A stretch of DNA of 9,209 nt from the NCBI GenBank assembly GCA_016209865.1, contig JACQVL010000250.1:1-9209 (forward strand). Direction: 5' to 3'. The stretch's first letter is position 1; each line of letters starts with the position of its first letter. Source of the stretch: Candidatus Latescibacterota bacterium (GTDB lineage: Bacteria > JAAXHH01 > JACQVL01). Made by a program: the position numbers and the translations under genes. The notes beneath the pieces were generated by a model. It was not told the DNA's origin. It saw only the letters and a program-made list of their open reading frames with translations, and ran no database searches. Below are positions 3,364-9,209 of this stretch, in pieces.

Positions 3364-4272
3364 TCACGAGGAATGGTGGAACGAATCGTCTCTCAACGCG
3401 GCCTGCTCCTCCGCCCAGGCTTTGAGCGGAATGTCATCATCCTCCGGCCGCCAGTGCCGGGAGACCGGGTGCACCCGGAGGTCCTCTCCCATGTAGTCCC
3501 GGTGCCCGCTCCCCATCTCGCCCACGAGTTGCCGCTGGATGGGGGTGCAACGGGCGATCAGGCCGGGGTCTTGATGCACATAGTCGGACGGCCGGATCCA
3601 GCGGTAGTGGTAGCCGTAGTACAGACACTTCCGCGTCCGCGTCGACAGGTTGGGCGTGAGACAGTGCCACAGCGCCGTGCGCCAGAGCATGGCCGTGCCG
3701 GGACGGACGTTGACCTCGACGATCCGGTCCGGGGCGATGCGGTACGTCGCGTCCTGCAGCAGCGCCGGAGACATCCGATGACTCCCCCGGACGACGCAGA
3801 TCGCCCCGCTGTTGTGCTCCGTCAGGTCGGTCAGGTAGTAGCCCACTTTCACCTCGACAAACGGCACCTGTCCGTTCGTGATCGGATACCCGAAGTTCGG
3901 GCCGTCCGAATGCCAGGGAAAGAAGCTGTCCTTCGCCCCTAAGACCTGCTGCCCATACTCGGGCGGGCAAGTCGGTCGCACGTCCATGTGCGAGGTCCGG
4001 ATCTGGATGTTGCACCCCATGACGTCCACCACCAGCGGGAGCATCACTGGATGGTCGACGAGGCGCAGGAATAGGTCATGATGGGCTAAGACGTTGCGCA
4101 CCTGAAACGGCTCATCCGGCTTGAGTCCCTTCTCCCGCCGGTACCGGGCGTCCAGTTCGTCGGTAACTGCGATCAGGTCGTCCACCTCCGAGGGTGTCAG
4201 CGCATTCTCCATCAGGAAGAACCCGTCCTCGTCGAACCGCCGTCGCTGTTCGTCCGTGATGCAGATAGGCAT
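3364..4272 (-). CDS. PhyH-family Fe(II)/2-oxoglutarate dioxygenase
   Basis: A 302-residue phytanoyl-CoA dioxygenase-family enzyme with an intact metal site: H121-S-D123 in FFPWHSDGPNFG and the distal H203 in LWHCLTPNLSTRTRK, followed by R212/R214 as the likely 2-oxoglutarate anchor. The family step G-A-I-C-V-V-R-G-S-H (156-165) lies between them. It begins with the standard TDEQRRRFDEDGFFLMENALT helix-turn segment, which resembles the start of other PhyH proteins. The frame stays open 27 codons further upstream, but I choose the ATG at 4272 because AAAGGAGA lies 6 nt before it, homology begins there, and the upstream extension is translated repeat DNA. Expected reaction: O2- and 2-oxoglutarate-dependent hydroxylation or oxidative demethylation; substrate unknown. 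It lies 45 bp before the NHL gene and follows the enolase gene after a 137-bp hairpin-rich spacer. Confidence 0.9.
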   Translation of the reverse strand: MPICITDEQRRRFDEDGFFLMENALTPSEVDDLIAVTDELDARYRREKGLKPDEPFQVRNVLAHHDLFLRLVDHPVMLPLVVDVMGCNIQIRTSHMDVRPTCPPEYGQQVLGAKDSFFPWHSDGPNFGYPITNGQVPFVEVKVGYYLTDLTEHNSGAICVVRGSHRMSPALLQDATYRIAPDRIVEVNVRPGTAMLWRTALWHCLTPNLSTRTRKCLYYGYHYRWIRPSDYVHQDPGLIARCTPIQRQLVGEMGSGHRDYMGEDLRVHPVSRHWRPEDDDIPLKAWAEEQAALRDDSFHHSS

Positions 4273-4303: not shown

Positions 4304-4380
4304 GGGCAGGTGGGCAGTGGGCAATGGGCAGTAGAAGCCGTTCCCCCGTCCACTGCCTACTGCCCATCTGCCTACTGCCC
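4304..4380. repeat. Heptamer array I (TGGGCAG), inverted arms, long hairpin
   Basis: The left arm (4304-4331) has 7-bp units gggcagg, tgggcag, tgggcaa, tgggcag. The right arm (4351-4380) has the complementary units cactgcc, tactgcc, an atctgcc variant after one extra base, and tactgcc. About 22 of 24 bases of 4311-4333 can pair with 4357-4380 around a ~23-nt loop, with an 11-bp perfect stretch (CTACTGCCCAT). It lies 29 bp after the stop of the enolase gene and ends about 18 bp before the Shine-Dalgarno site of the next oxygenase gene. A transcript hairpin here could stabilise, process or partly terminate the message. There is no clear U-tract for a classic terminator. Confidence 0.85.
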
Positions 4381-4409
4381 CGGAAGGGCGAGGGCGGGGG
4401 GCGGTCATC

Positions 4410-5699
4410 TCAGCTCCACAGCCGGTCCCACGACCGTTCCGTGTCCCATTCGGGCGTCGGCTTGAAGTAGCCAGAATCGGGGTTCAGGTGCTCCTTGATG
4501 ACATCCGGGTTGAGGTCGATCCCCAGTCCGGGTGCCTCCGGGACGGCAATGTACCCCTTCTGAATAATCGGGTTGGGGAGGCCGGTCACGACCTCATTCC
4601 ACCAGGGCACGTCGACGTAATGGTTCTCTAAGGCGACGAAGTTCTCGGTCGCCGCCGCGCAGTGGACGCTGGCCATCGTCGCCACCGGCATCGCCGCCAT
4701 GTGCATGGCCATGCTGACCCCATGCTCCTGGGCGAGGTCGCCGATCTTCTTCGTCTCCATGATCCCGCCGGAGGTGGCGAGATCAGGATGACAGACCGAG
4801 ATCGCCTTCGCCTCAAACAGCTTGAGGAACGGTTCTTTCAGGTAGATATCCTCGCCCGTGCAGATGGGCGTCGCGCACGAGTTGGACAGGCGGACGTACT
4901 GGTCGGTGTACTGCCAGGGGATCATGTCCTCCAGCCAGGCTAAGTTGAACCGGTCGAGAGCACGGGCTAAGCGGATGCAGTCCTCGACCCCGATGTGGCC
5001 GAAATGGTCGGCGGCTAAGGGAATCTCGTCCCCGATGATCGACCGGACAGCCTCGACGTAGTCGCAGAGGAGGCCGATGCCTTTTTCCGTGATGTGGATG
5101 CCCGTGAACGGGTGCATCACGGTGTACGTGTCGAGCATGCCTGACGGCGCGGAGAGGGTGCCGGGGATGTCCCGGAGCAGGCCGATGCCGATGTCCATCT
5201 TCAGGAACGTGAACCCTTGTTTGATCCGTGCTTTCAATCGCCGACCCATCGCCTGACCGTCCTTCTCGGACGTGGTGTCGCAGTAGACGCGGATGGCGTC
5301 CCGGAATTTCCCCCCGACGAGCTGGTAGGCGGGGATGCCATACGCTTTCCCCGCCAGGTCGATCAAGGCCATCTCGACCGCGCAGACGCCGCCGCCCTGC
5401 CGGGCATGGTGGCCGAACTGCTTGATCTTGCGGAACACCTGATCGACGTGGCACGGACTCTCCCCGATGAGACGGTGTTTCAGCAGCAACGCGTATGTCT
5501 TGCTCGCCCCGTCCCGCACTTCGCCCAGACCGTAGATGCCCTGATTGGTATCGATCTTGATGATCGTACACCCGCCGATCGTCGCCGTCCGCATGTCGGT
5601 GATCTTGAGCGCGCTCGGCCGGGACGCGGTCCGCACGCCCGCGCCGATCGTGGCCGTGCGAATGCGACGTGTCTGACGTTTTTTCGATACTGTTGCCAT
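4410..5699 (-). CDS. Mandelate-racemase-type enolase-superfamily enzyme (probable sugar-acid dehydratase)
   Basis: A 429-residue protein of the mandelate racemase/muconate lactonizing family. Three metal ligands are D231 (AADHFGH), E257 (WLED) and E283 (TGED). A His-Asp dyad is H333 (AMHMAA) with D306 (CHPDLATSGG), and E352 follows. The spacings 26, 26, 23 and 27 are those of mandelate racemase (D195, E221, E247, D270, H297), which places it in the MR subgroup. The KxK position reads K167-M-D169, so the second lysine is replaced by Asp. About 33 extra residues (roughly 172-205) sit between K167 and D231. Most such enzymes dehydrate sugar acids such as gluconate, galactonate, fuconate or tartrate; some racemise or cycloisomerise. 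Here the substrate is unknown. A 30-residue N-terminal extension precedes the usual LKITDMRTATIG start. The ATG follows GAGGAGG closely (4 nt). Confidence 0.9.
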   Translation of the reverse strand: MATVSKKRQTRRIRTATIGAGVRTASRPSALKITDMRTATIGGCTIIKIDTNQGIYGLGEVRDGASKTYALLLKHRLIGESPCHVDQVFRKIKQFGHHARQGGGVCAVEMALIDLAGKAYGIPAYQLVGGKFRDAIRVYCDTTSEKDGQAMGRRLKARIKQGFTFLKMDIGIGLLRDIPGTLSAPSGMLDTYTVMHPFTGIHITEKGIGLLCDYVEAVRSIIGDEIPLAADHFGHIGVEDCIRLARALDRFNLAWLEDMIPWQYTDQYVRLSNSCATPICTGEDIYLKEPFLKLFEAKAISVCHPDLATSGGIMETKKIGDLAQEHGVSMAMHMAAMPVATMASVHCAAATENFVALENHYVDVPWWNEVVTGLPNPIIQKGYIAVPEAPGLGIDLNPDVIKEHLNPDSGYFKPTPEWDTERSWDRLWS

Positions 5700-5723
5700 G
5701 AAGCCTCCTCAATTGTCATGAAG

Positions 5724-5771
5724 TACAATTCTGTCTGGACAAATTGTATTTTTCGATGAGAAAGTACAATT
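5724..5771 (-). promoter_or_regulatory. Palindromic operator and probable promoter for the enolase operon
   Basis: TACAATT at 5724-5730 and AATTGTA at 5742-5748 form a 25-bp palindrome with 11 bp between perfect 7-bp arms, and an inner TGTC-TG-GACA. A third exact copy, TACAATT, is at 5765-5771; a degenerate one, AATTGTC, is at 5711-5717. On the minus strand, TACAAT (5743-5748) is a good -10, and ATTGTA/TTGTAC about 15-16 bp upstream is a weak -35. Repressor or activator binding would therefore overlap the promoter. The implied leader is about 35-40 nt to the ATG at 5699. The family of the regulator cannot be told; GntR- and LacI-type dimers use sites of this shape. No regulator gene is present in the window. 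Confidence 0.6.
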
Positions 5772-5857
5772 TTGCTCCTACACGTTCCTTCACGCTGTCG
5801 AGAAGTCAATCTGTCTCCCGTCTCGATACATAGAATATTTCTCTACTATCTGCTCGT

Positions 5858-5889
5858 CCCGAACCCCGAACCCCTACTCCCGAACCCCG
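5858..5889. repeat. Heptamer array II (CCCGAAC) overlapping a gene end
   Basis: Units are cccgaac (5858-5864), cccgaac (5865-5871), ccctact (5872-5878), cccgaac (5879-5885), then cccg. The order is A-A-B-A with one divergent unit. The minus-strand stop TAG (5874-5876) of the upstream oxygenase gene lies in the B unit, and that protein's last residues are encoded by the array. No facing inverted arm is seen. Confidence 0.8.
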
Positions 5890-6701
5890 GGGGTTAACGG
5901 CCCCTTCTCCCACACCGTCGGGAAATACTCACCTTTCAGGATTTCGCCGGGCTTCACGTCCACCCGTACCTCCATCACGTGTCCCCCGACGGGCTCATAC
6001 CGGGTATAGCCAGGCATATAATGAATCGCGATCGCGCGCCGCGGCTTGTCGGACGGGTTGGGCGGGCTGCCATGCCAGGTCAGGCAATGGTGGAACATGC
6101 ATTCCCCTTTCATGACCTCGCACGGGACGATTTCAACGGACTCATTCGGTGGAAGAAGCGAGAGGTCGGGGTCGGGGGAGAAGTCGTCCGCTTTGGTTCC
6201 GACAGTGCCGCCCTTGTGCGGGCCCCACAGATGGCTCCGGGGCACCATCCGCATGCAGCCGTTCTCCGTCGTCGCGTCGTCGAGCGCGACCCAGGCGCTG
6301 ACCAGGTCCGCCGGCTGGATGATCGGCCAGTACGGATGATCCTGGTGCCAGTCGGTCGATCCGCCCTTCCGGGACGGCTTGTACTGGATCTGATCGTGCC
6401 ACACCCGCAGGGTATCCGTCCCGATCAGGTCGGTCGCCATCTCGCAGATCGTCGGGTTGTAGGTGAGCGCCTGGAACAGGTCGTCCGCTTCCCAGATGTT
6501 GACGATCTGGATGACGACCTGCTCGGCGTCCAGATCGCCCCCCTTCAGGTTGCGGAGGAGTTCCGGGTTGCTCTGCGATTGGCCCGCGATGACCAGGTCG
6601 AGCCGTTCGCGCAGGCGTTCGACCTGGTCGTCGTCGAGCACCCGGCCGACTTTGAGGAAGCCCCGTTCTCGGAATGTTTTGATCTGAGCGTCTGAGAGCA
6701 T
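5874..6701 (-). CDS. PhyH-family Fe(II)/2-oxoglutarate dioxygenase
   Basis: A 275-residue phytanoyl-CoA dioxygenase-family enzyme, the most canonical of the three here. The metal site is H119-Q-D121 in STDWHQDHPYWP with distal H210 in TWHGSPPNPSDKPRRAI, and R221 is the expected 2-oxoglutarate anchor. The E-N-G-C-M-R-M-V-P-R-S-H step (146-157) is typical. Expected chemistry is O2/2-oxoglutarate-dependent hydroxylation in the cytoplasm; the WHQD and NGC context is shared with large groups of bacterial PhyH enzymes of unknown substrate. I choose the ATG at 6701 because AAAGGAG lies 8 nt upstream and LSDAQIKTFRERGFLKV is the normal family start; the frame is open to 6770 but without a ribosome site. 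Its last codons and TAG stop lie in heptamer array II. It follows the glycosidase-like gene by 109 bp containing heptamer array III. Confidence 0.92.
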   Translation of the reverse strand: MLSDAQIKTFRERGFLKVGRVLDDDQVERLRERLDLVIAGQSQSNPELLRNLKGGDLDAEQVVIQIVNIWEADDLFQALTYNPTICEMATDLIGTDTLRVWHDQIQYKPSRKGGSTDWHQDHPYWPIIQPADLVSAWVALDDATTENGCMRMVPRSHLWGPHKGGTVGTKADDFSPDPDLSLLPPNESVEIVPCEVMKGECMFHHCLTWHGSPPNPSDKPRRAIAIHYMPGYTRYEPVGGHVMEVRVDVKPGEILKGEYFPTVWEKGPLTPGVRE

Positions 6702-6709
6702 GCGAGGTA

Positions 6710-6716
6710 CTCCTTT
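6710..6716 (-). promoter_or_regulatory. Shine-Dalgarno site fixing the 6701 start
   Basis: AAAGGAG on the minus strand, 8 nt before the ATG at 6701. It lies 10 bp downstream of the left arm of array III, so hairpin formation could affect access to it. Confidence 0.75.
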
Positions 6717-6725
6717 CGTGAAAGC

Positions 6726-6825
6726 GGTGGTCGGTAGCCGGTGATCGGTTAAGACCAAAAGCTTGTTCAATCTTCATCGCTCTTAGTGTTGACCGACCAC
6801 CGACCACTGATCACCGACCACCGAG
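6726..6825. repeat. Heptamer array III (GGTGGTC / CGACCAC), inverted arms
   Basis: The left arm (6726-6753) has ggtggtc, ggtagcc, ggtgatc, ggttaag. The right arm (6794-6825) has cgaccac, cgaccac, tgatcac, cgaccac, cgag, again A-A-B-A. The arms are mutually complementary (ten perfect pairs in GGTGGTCGGT against its complement, weaker beyond) around a ~40-nt AT-richer loop. The minus-strand stop TGA (6811-6813) of the glycosidase-like gene lies in the B unit tgatcac, and its last three residues (GGR) are encoded by the array. It lies between the glycosidase-like gene and the first oxygenase gene. Confidence 0.82.
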
Positions 6826-8334
6826 AAACTGAAACGCATACATCCGCATCGAACGAATCTTCACATGCAGCCGGACGGACTCTCTGGGAACCTCCGTGCC
6901 AATTCGATCAGAGTTCTTCCAGATCACCGGACTGTCAAGTCCATCAGTCGTGATCGGCTGGCAGGTGTCGAAGGTATAGCCGTCGATCGGTGTGTCCGTT
7001 TCTGATGAGAGCAATTGGATTCGGATTTCGGGCTCCGGCCCGGTGGGCTCAGCGTTGATCATCAGCCGCTCTCCGTCGAAACAAAGTGGACGGGTCGAAC
7101 AATGTCCGCCGCGCTGATCCCCCTCGATCCCGATGATGCGATCCCGTTTGAACGTCACCCGCGAGACCCGGCTCTGCGGCTTGTAATCGAGGGTGATCGG
7201 ATGAGACCCGCCGTGCGGGCCGTCCCCGCTGCGGTAGTAGAGCGCCCAGGTGTCGTGATCAACGGGCACGAACCCCGGCGCGACGGAGATGATGAAGCAG
7301 TCGAACGCGCCCGGTTCGCCGAGGGGGATGAACGTCTCGCGGCAGAGCCGGCCCCAATGCCGGTTGTCCCGGCTGGCGGCGACCTGGACGTGGAACGTGC
7401 CCTCGTAGTGCTGGTAGAAGCTGGGGAAGAGGTAGTGCGCGTTCACGTTGTCGGGATGCCGCGAGTACGCGCTGTTGTAGACGTCGGTGTTGAGGCTATC
7501 CTCCGAGTCGGCGGCGAGGACGAGGACGGACGGCGACCACTGCCGGAAGGAGTCCGACTCGATCCGCCCGACCGCCCGGCCGCGGTGCTGGGGTTTGACG
7601 CGGAGGGAGCCGGCCTCTACGTCGGCAAACTGGTTGCTCGTCCGGTGGTAGACGACGTACTGCTCTAACGTCGGGTCCCAGCAGGCGCAGTTCTGTGAAT
7701 CGGGATATCGGCCGAGGAAGTTTTCGTAGTAGCGCGTCCACCGGATGCCGTCGGGCGAGTACGCGCCCCGGAGGGTGCCTTGAGACCCATCATACAGCTC
7801 GAACACATACGGCCCATCCCATTCCGCGTAGACCATCTTGTACCGCTCCGCGTCGGGCGCGACCGGGTCGATGAACACGGTGCCCAGTTCCGGGCTCACC
7901 CCGTTGAATCCCCCCTCAAAGACGACGTTGTTCTCCGTTGAGCCTGCGACTGCGACCCGATGGAGGATCGGCTTCTCAAAATGGATCCCATCGTCAGACT
8001 CCGCATAGCTGACGCGCAGGCCGCGCCGGTCGGCGTGGGAGGAGTTGTACCACATCCGATACCGGCCGTCTTCTTTGAGGACACACAGCCACGCTGTCCC
8101 GCTCTCCCACGGCGCGTCCGCCTCCAGGATGGGCGTCCCGTGCTTCTCGACTTGCCCTAAGGAGAAGCGGACGCCGTAGGCGAGCTGGTCCCAGTGGGCC
8201 GGTGCGGCCATGTGGAGGAAGAAGTCGTCGAACAGCACTTGCCGGCGCGACCCGACATCAACCGGCGGCTGTCGTCTCCGGTATCGCTCCTGGTGGACGT
8301 CGTACTGCGGCTTCTCAGGCGTTGAGTCGCTCAT
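6811..8334 (-). CDS. Five-bladed beta-propeller glycosidase-like protein (GH32/GH43-like)
   Basis: A 507-residue protein. Near the N-terminus is GSRRQVLFDDFFL (28-40), the [GS]-R-R-Q-L-F-V-D-D-Y/F hallmark of a large planctomycete-type group usually annotated as glycosyl hydrolase family 32-like or hypothetical. It is followed by propeller-blade segments: RYRMWYNSS and LRVSYAESDDGIHFEKP (91-122), RYKMVYAEWDG (164-174), AYSPDGIRWTRY (191-202), QYVVYHRTS (225-233), and VAASRDNRHWGRL (318-330). The C-terminal ~110 residues form a likely beta-sandwich (LMINAEP, IRIQLLSS, GYTFDTCQPITTDGLDSPVIW, VRLHVKI, MYAFQFL), as is usual for this group. D36/D37 is a candidate nucleophile; acid/base residues cannot be placed with confidence. 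No signal peptide. Substrate unknown. It is the first cluster gene, 47 nt from a good promoter. The Shine-Dalgarno site (AAGAG) is weak. Confidence 0.8.
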   Translation of the reverse strand: MSDSTPEKPQYDVHQERYRRRQPPVDVGSRRQVLFDDFFLHMAAPAHWDQLAYGVRFSLGQVEKHGTPILEADAPWESGTAWLCVLKEDGRYRMWYNSSHADRRGLRVSYAESDDGIHFEKPILHRVAVAGSTENNVVFEGGFNGVSPELGTVFIDPVAPDAERYKMVYAEWDGPYVFELYDGSQGTLRGAYSPDGIRWTRYYENFLGRYPDSQNCACWDPTLEQYVVYHRTSNQFADVEAGSLRVKPQHRGRAVGRIESDSFRQWSPSVLVLAADSEDSLNTDVYNSAYSRHPDNVNAHYLFPSFYQHYEGTFHVQVAASRDNRHWGRLCRETFIPLGEPGAFDCFIISVAPGFVPVDHDTWALYYRSGDGPHGGSHPITLDYKPQSRVSRVTFKRDRIIGIEGDQRGGHCSTRPLCFDGERLMINAEPTGPEPEIRIQLLSSETDTPIDGYTFDTCQPITTDGLDSPVIWKNSDRIGTEVPRESVRLHVKIRSMRMYAFQFLGGR

Positions 8335-8528: not shown

Positions 8529-8957
8529 TCAATTGCTCTGTGTCACTCGTTGAGCTATCAATACCGCATCCTCGGCTAAACTCAGTGCCCGGCGAGCATC
8601 CGTTTCATCGAATAACTCCCATGGCGTGCGCCCTCCGGCCTCATCACCATAGTCGCTCTCAATGTGAATATCAGGGCCTAATAGCTCCGCACACTCAGCT
8701 ACTCGTGCTACCTGTTGAACGATGTCGGATGGAAAGCGACCATCCTTTAATGCCTGTCGCAACGGCATTGCGGGGTTATGCGTCCGCCCCACTGGCCCCA
8801 AGAGGGCTAACATGGCTTTGGCGGCATTCTCGGTTGCCAGTTGACTATGATCGACGCATGCACGCCAACGCTGGGAAGCCATATCCTGACGGGCTTCATC
8901 CAGAAATCCGTCAGCCAGGCGGAGTCGATAGCGGACTTCTTCAGTGATCTGTATCAT
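8529..8957 (-). CDS. HEPN-domain protein (likely toxin of an MNT-HEPN pair)
   Basis: A 142-residue, mostly helical protein. The segment RWRACVDHSQLATENAAKAMLALLG (about residues 30-54) matches the core of HEPN proteins of the PF05168 type, where a x-H-x-Q-x-A-x-E-x-A-x-K-A-x-x-A helix is standard. R32-x4-H37 fits the R-x4-6-H spacing of HEPN ribonucleases, though it lies in the N-terminal helix and is not followed by the H-x-Y of typical HepT toxins, so nuclease activity is uncertain. The second helical part runs to ~136 (DARRALSLAEDAVLIAQRV). The start ATG directly follows the TAG stop of the nucleotidyltransferase gene (TAGATG), so translation is surely coupled. In HEPN/MNT modules the nucleotidyltransferase neutralises the HEPN protein, for example by AMP addition. 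Base composition looks less GC-rich than the neighbouring cluster. Confidence 0.82.
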   Translation of the reverse strand: MIQITEEVRYRLRLADGFLDEARQDMASQRWRACVDHSQLATENAAKAMLALLGPVGRTHNPAMPLRQALKDGRFPSDIVQQVARVAECAELLGPDIHIESDYGDEAGGRTPWELFDETDARRALSLAEDAVLIAQRVTQSN

Positions 8958-9209
8958 CTAAGGCTTCCATTCCAGAACCCACGGCCCGGATGGCTCGTGT
9001 TGCCATCGCCATACATCCCCTCCGTCGGTGTGCTCACGATACAGCCCCATCCGCTCGATCAACCGACATAAAGTCGCCAGTCGCTCAGCCGCATACCCGT
9101 GCGGGTCGTACAGAATATGCCCATCCAGTGCGATATCCAGATAGAGAGACGGCAGAGATGCTTCAAATTCCTGGGGGGTTTTCGCCAACACCGAAATCGC
9201 CCCACGATA
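8958..9209 (-). CDS. Minimal nucleotidyltransferase (MNT), C-terminal part
   Basis: The frame is open to the right edge; 83 codons are visible, beginning in-frame with YRGAISVLAKTP. The segment LPSLYLDIALDGHILYDP and the Trp-rich end (VWRWQHEPSGPWVLEWKP) resemble the C-terminal part of bacterial Pol-beta-like nucleotidyltransferases found beside HEPN genes. The GSxxxG...DxD catalytic motif lies outside the window, so activity cannot be judged. A GTG at 9191 could be read as a start, but homology continues upstream of it, so I treat the gene as cut by the edge. The stop TAG is immediately followed by the HEPN start. Confidence 0.8.
   Translation of the reverse strand, partial: YRGAISVLAKTPQEFEASLPSLYLDIALDGHILYDPHGYAAERLATLCRLIERMGLYREHTDGGDVWRWQHEPSGPWVLEWKP

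Follow-up and report, generated by a model that had tools for sequence, protein, structure and literature searches.

Tandem repeats with a 7-nt unit have been described in Xanthomonas and Nostoc, where the heptamers GGGAATC and GGGGA(C/T)T mostly occur as four units, are 89-93% intergenic and form inverted pairs that are convergent, with divergent gaps being under-represented (Rehm et al. 2015, PMC4692102). The G-rich repeat near an open reading frame (ORF) was located on the coding strand downstream and on the non-coding strand upstream, and its length varied between relatives. The same paper refers to a 2007 observation, given here as cited there, that heptanucleotides are over-represented in bacteria. 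We examined a window of 9,209 nt in which three consecutive genes are followed by arrays of three different heptamers (arrays I, II and III). The window makes up all of contig C211 in a draft genome of 3.75 Mb (356 contigs, 83% complete; referred to here as a Candidatus Poribacteria metagenome-assembled genome). We found that these arrays belong to the Xanthomonas/Nostoc kind of heptanucleotide repeat, and that the new features are the many words under one layout in one genome, the families without G-tracts and the turnover of words at many gaps.

The features held in common with the Xanthomonas and Nostoc repeats include the excess of period 7, the 7-nt unit, the approximately four units per arm, the intergenic and ORF-near position with the same strand rule for the G-rich repeat, and the convergent pairs. 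However, one G-rich family each has been described for Xanthomonas and Nostoc, interpreted in terms of G-quadruplexes, whereas about ten families were found here, with words changing at fixed sites. Units with a GGG run (CAGGGGT, CGGGGTT, TGGGCAG and GGGGAAA) were accompanied by five that are free of GGG (AGTGACG, GGTGGTC, GATTTTG, AAGGACG and AATGATG). The families without GGG indicate that the capacity to form G-quadruplexes is not required; G-tracts are not general here; they belong to the G-quadruplex interpretation rather than to heptamer repeats at large.

Other described systems share parts of this pattern. The P6b stems of the Nostoc trnL intron, with class I TDNGATT and class II NNTGAGT words (Kaasalainen et al. 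2015, PMC4476775), are likewise heptad hairpins with two words at one site, repeated shifts and single 7-nt indels, but they represent one intron locus as compared to the genome-wide intergenic system here. The TAACTGA repeats of Beggiatoaceae (MacGregor 2015, PMC4679880) are also intergenic heptamers with a patchy taxonomic spread, although they comprise one word in direct repeats (with one indirect set) located mostly just upstream of starts. The GGACCGG elements of Geobacter metallireducens (PMC2700814) consist of four tandem heptamers in 49 dispersed copies, yet form one family that is also found in genes and was read as regulatory RNA elements. Repetitive extragenic palindromes (REP) and bacterial interspersed mosaic elements with TnpA-REP (RAYT) are similarly dispersed intergenic palindromes, but they lack a heptad period, and the genome examined here has no Y1 transposase match.

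All three arrays of the window were located where the initial annotation had placed them. Array I is a hairpin of the TGGGCAG family, with an arm that is G-rich on the + strand (4304..4332; GGGCAGG TGGGCAG TGGGCAA TGGGCAG T), a loop at 4333..4349 that reads GTGGACGGGGGAACGGCTTC on the - strand, and an arm on the - strand that is C-rich when read on the + strand (4350..4380; ACTGCCT ACTGCCC ATCTGCCT ACTGCCC). Array II (5858..5889, - strand) is a lone arm of the CGGGGTT/CCCGAAC family. Array III, of the GGTGGTC family, possesses two arms around a spacer (6750..6791), one G-rich on the + strand (6725..6749) and one on the - strand (6792..6824) that reads ACCGACC ACCGACC ACTGATC ACCGACC ACCGA on the + strand. 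RNA folding z-scores were -6.0 for array I and -5.7 for array III, compared to +0.2 for array II alone.

Each array follows the end of a minus-strand gene, as had been stated. The mandelate racemase/enolase-family (MR_MLE) gene (4410..5699, - strand) lies upstream of array I, and a PhyH-like gene (3364..4272, - strand) lies downstream of it with its start codon 32 nt from the array start. The middle PhyH-like dioxygenase gene (5874..6701, - strand) terminates at 5874-5876 inside array II, which encodes the protein end PGVRE; a variant unit, CGGGAGT, read as CGGGAGT followed by AGGGG, carries the TAG stop. Similarly, the gene of a 507-amino-acid protein without a Pfam match (6811..8334, - strand) terminates at 6811-6813 inside array III, which encodes the final residues LGGR and whose variant unit GGTGATC (minus strand) is the source of the TGA stop.

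We sought to assess whether such arrays are common in this genome. The base-by-base reading covered 930 kb (approximately 25% of the genome), and genes were called with our own simple caller. From this examination, 203 arrays of period 7 were found, compared to 0-14 for each period from 4 to 20 not divisible by 7; the multiples of 7 followed as expected, and an order-2 Markov sequence contained no period-7 arrays. Some of the contigs in the 930 kb had been selected for ACCGACC arrays, and the 252 kb taken regardless of arrays were counted separately, with 55 period-7 arrays versus 0-6 for other periods. By extrapolation, the whole genome carries roughly 800 arrays. The word pattern of array III had 437 genome matches versus 2 for a reversed control. 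Because of this excess within the same genome (203 versus 0-14, and none in the Markov sequence), a chance origin of the arrays in the window is excluded. A genome-wide scan for a period-7 excess and a repeated unit order had been proposed as the test that could reduce the three arrays to coincidence; it was run and did not do so.

A scan of the 930 kb with ten unit families recovered 319 arms with a single architecture. Arm lengths peaked at 23-26 and 30-33 nt, equal to 7n + 2-4 nt or about four units per arm, and in several families an identical short word opens and closes the arm (AGT...AGT, GATT...GATT, CGGG...CGGG and CAGG...CAGG). The majority of the arms were intergenic (250/319). The outer end of an arm was found either at a stop codon, often with the stop within the arm and supplied by the heptads as the gene ends there, or upstream of a start codon, mostly at a distance of 8-25 nt. 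Among same-family neighbours within 250 nt, 58 pairs were convergent (G-rich arm left, C-rich arm right) and none was divergent. A family-independent count placed the G-richer arm on the left (5') in 35/35 inverted pairs, and neighbouring pairs with different words followed this polarity in 17/21. The rule is stated as G over C and replaced a purine-rich rule because GATTTTG is not purine-rich. The initial annotation had supposed that the unit sequence is free from gap to gap, and this did not hold, as about ten families are shared across the genome.

Two further observations concern these hairpins. GGTGGTC arms were found joined to AGTGACG arms in a nested outer/inner arrangement through an A-rich linker of 6-7 nt (aaaatc, gaaaaac), as at L034:19252-19314, L039:2623-2675 and L061:6344-6411. 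A dRS3-like palindrome, TCATTCCCGCG-N-GCGGGAATCC, had 51 matches in the 930 kb with both strands counted and 0 in 400 kb of a relative (G002), and it often lies in the loop between heptad arms (L033, L035, L040, L214, L216, L220 and others).

The proposed comparison with syntenic loci bears on the lineage in which the arrays were gained. In the closest syntenic relative found (L104), the gene order is identical across all three gaps, and the gaps of arrays I and III were nearly empty, with 9 nt and 20 nt, respectively. The homologue of the 507-amino-acid protein in L104 ends in MRMYAFRFC, while the window protein ends in MRMYAFQFLGGR, its last codons being the array. No period-7 arrays were found in 400 kb of G002. 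The AGTGACN family had 465 matches in its own genome and none in 15 genomes of the same order; elsewhere in a sample of 191 genomes, just 2 had matches. As judged from the comparison with a diverged relative, the arrays of the window appear to have arisen in their own lineage within formerly compact gaps. With 60-77% protein identity, these relatives are far removed; a loss in them is conceivable, but would need to have been general. As a separate observation, a genome of another group (G079; L225, L237 and L241) contained AGTGACA heptad tracts with 22 matches, some of them longer than those of the poribacterial genome.

Near-empty gaps in the closest relative would also be expected if the arrays were dispersed palindromic transposable elements, similar to miniature inverted-repeat transposable elements or REP, with a transposase acting in trans and each heptamer family being an element family. 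The lineage-specific amplification and the pairing of arms within the same family are in line with this idea, and so is the TGGGCAG family of array I, which has the look of a copied element: its seven copies in 930 kb (array I and six others) share loop and borders, and three of them share further flank. Nonetheless, we hold transposition to be unlikely as the general explanation. In the other families, the loops of different copies show no relation, with inter-arm sequences alike across loci only for the dRS3-like palindrome and one paralogous pair, whose members differ by one unit. Flank repeats were at the shuffled expectation, with no target-site duplication in excess of it; no Y1_Tnp (PF01797) match was found in the 83%-complete genome, and no transposase was found between arms in the part read. 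Unit words also change at fixed sites in Chloroflexi, as described below. The suggestion that the arrays are a mobile repeat family may hold for the array I family and lacks support for most of the others. Autonomous arm-flanked elements were also considered and set aside, as none was present in the stretch read and genes enclosed by same-family arms far apart resemble normal genes of the cell.

Hairpins of the same kind, with dozens of words, were found in three Chloroflexi genomes, G191 and G192 (approximately 94% identical) and G197 (approximately 80%). In G192 the G-richer arm was left in 13/14 inverted pairs, and the gene-end position was also as in the poribacterial genome. Loci were taken as orthologous when both flanks matched (67-100% identity). 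Two orthologous gaps had an unchanged word in all three genomes (AAAATTT in one, AAAATCC with AATCCCC in the other), while four gaps possessed AAAGTGC in G191 and G192 and TAAGTGC or TAAGTCC in G197. At one gap, AGTTGAG in G192 corresponded to AGTTGAT in G191, whereas the hairpin of G197 was an ordinary terminator-like one (L310:7150); another gap differed as GGCTCAT versus GGCTCTT. In a fused glycyl-tRNA synthetase-like gene, the linker heptads were CTGAGTT in G192 and (right arm) G197, and GCAAAGT in G191. This linker, which joins a GlyQ-like to a GlyS-like part, is itself an in-frame heptad hairpin whose word differs between sister species (L125:8905-9010 and L129:8747-8850).

The word change was usually seen in both arms of a hairpin. 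Copy number shifted by whole heptads, also between the approximately 94% identical species, with up to approximately 15 versus 3 units between 100% identical flanks. TAAGTNC had 6, 1 and 175 matches in G191, G192 and G197, respectively, and AAAGTNC had 117, 47 and 72. An identical word change at several loci is unlikely to result from independent mutation, which points to transfer among loci or to a common source. The idea of one generating process whose unit is free to change is thus borne out in part, by word changes under a constant layout at gaps of the three Chloroflexi, by the single architecture shared by many heptamers and by the near-empty gaps of the closest relative. A 161-nt dispersed repeat (L125:7277-7437) was also noted, with many copies in G191, G192 and G197.

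The terminator-like hairpin of G197, at a site where the two other Chloroflexi carry heptad hairpins, fits selection for bidirectional terminators or RNA end stems, with heptads as a by-product of keeping long stems. The strong folding of arrays I and III and of two Chloroflexi hairpins (z from -5.7 to -10), the G-rich 5' and C-rich 3' arms at gene ends, and the slightly higher frequency of arms between convergent genes than the number of such gaps would predict point the same way. However, arms are also present in divergent gaps and upstream of starts, array II alone does not fold, and the period of 7 and the words common to several loci are left unexplained, so that we rate this selection as improbable for the origin of the arrays.

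We further characterized the divergent unit within the arms. The initial annotation had described an A-A-B-A layout, which corresponds to a reading of the right arm on the + strand. Among four-unit arms with exactly one variant (n = 51), the variant was the second unit from the gene side in 32, the third in 16, the fourth in 2 and the first in 1. The layout therefore recurs as an inner variant unit, at position 2 or 3 and not strictly as the third unit. A strand-directional A-A-B-A code was dropped, as the variant position was independent of the coding strand. Some variant units, such as GGTGATC and CGGGAGT, supply the stop of a gene that runs into the array; because stop-bearing units are about as frequent in arms that precede start codons, stop supply is only a partial reason for them. 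Alternatively, interruptions at inner units may lend stability to long palindromes and to arrays in tandem.

The idea of long simple sequence repeats, attributed to Mrazek 2007 in PMC4692102 and PMC4679880, invokes nothing more than polymerase slippage at heptads present by chance, and it would account for the whole-heptad indels and for one array that is approximately 20 units longer in a sister species. It fails on the one word at many loci and on the gene-end position, and the strict G-left polarity together with the pairing of same-family arms across unrelated spacers argues against slippage as the sole cause, which makes it very improbable.

Those same two features would be explained by a candidate sequence-templated writer acting in trans, telomerase-like or other, with an exchangeable template that places the same word on both sides of a gap. 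If true, it would also explain the fixed start and end phases of the arms and the genome-wide word change between sister species. The DRT10 reverse transcriptase (PMC12632851) similarly produces tandem short repeats from an A-B-A' template, with fixed product phases like the ends of the arms; however, the repeats are 9 nt in the best-studied system, its complementary DNA is not shown to enter the genome, and nothing ties it to the arms. A motif search found no credible reverse transcriptase in the 930 kb, the rest of the genome not having been searched, and two regular-expression matches do not look like reverse transcriptases. We regard such a writer as a long shot.

The explanation that we favor, with somewhat better than even confidence, is that of heptad hairpins that gain and lose whole units and are homogenised between arms and loci. 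In each hairpin, a G-rich arm of about four heptamers would lie at one gene end and a C-rich arm, built from the same heptamer family, at the other, with a short spacer between them. Hairpins would first be gained in formerly compact gaps, as seen for those of the window in comparison to the diverged relative, and the arms would then gain or lose whole heptamers, as observed in Chloroflexi, probably by slippage inside arms. New unit variants would spread to both arms and across many loci, and the hairpin of a gap would thereby persist with a replaced word, a pattern observed in the three Chloroflexi and presumed for the poribacterial genome. Exchange between arms may occur by hairpin template switching, and exchange between loci by gene conversion or re-copying. 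The gene-end position may reflect both the tolerance of such DNA at these sites and a role of the stem in bidirectional termination or in structuring RNA ends.

Several points weigh against this homogenisation of hairpins. The arms of a hairpin are no more alike than random arms of the same family, with 1/37 variant positions matched versus 15% with shuffled partners, which speaks against recent arm-to-arm copying in the poribacterial genome. Its unit families showed no significant linkage through single substitutions (P 0.14-0.31), and a test of whether all of them descend from one word gave no support. The comparisons that reveal word change were made in a different phylum, the Chloroflexi, and differing words at one gap could likewise result if hairpins were re-inserted independently at tolerant sites. 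The base-by-base coverage is only the quarter of the genome given above, and no enzyme was identified for repeat formation.

Regarding the remaining content of the window, the genes encode three PhyH dioxygenases, the mandelate racemase-like enzyme, a sugar isomerase-like barrel, an NHL protein, the 507-amino-acid protein and a HEPN protein. The top matches of the protein between arrays I and II were from Candidatus Poribacteria (71-77% identity). The HEPN-domain gene and, after it, a further small gene on the minus strand that lies at the contig end occupy 8529-9209, possibly as a HEPN/MNT-type pair, and positions 1-501 contain the frame of a glycine-rich repeat protein (GSGEGITGIALSGVALGAGG-like) truncated by the contig end. 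Rfam gave no matches in 95 kb including the window.

To our knowledge, the published reasons for the over-representation of heptanucleotides in bacteria, including polymerase footprint and G-quadruplexes, have never been settled. The presence of ten words under one architecture, several of them free of G-tracts, suggests that the architecture rather than the word is kept. The site-by-site change of words between sister species offers a direct route to test how the repeats are formed. Furthermore, heptads enter genes, as stop codons in the poribacterial genome and, in Chloroflexi, as an in-frame linker that connects the two parts of a glycyl-tRNA synthetase-like gene.

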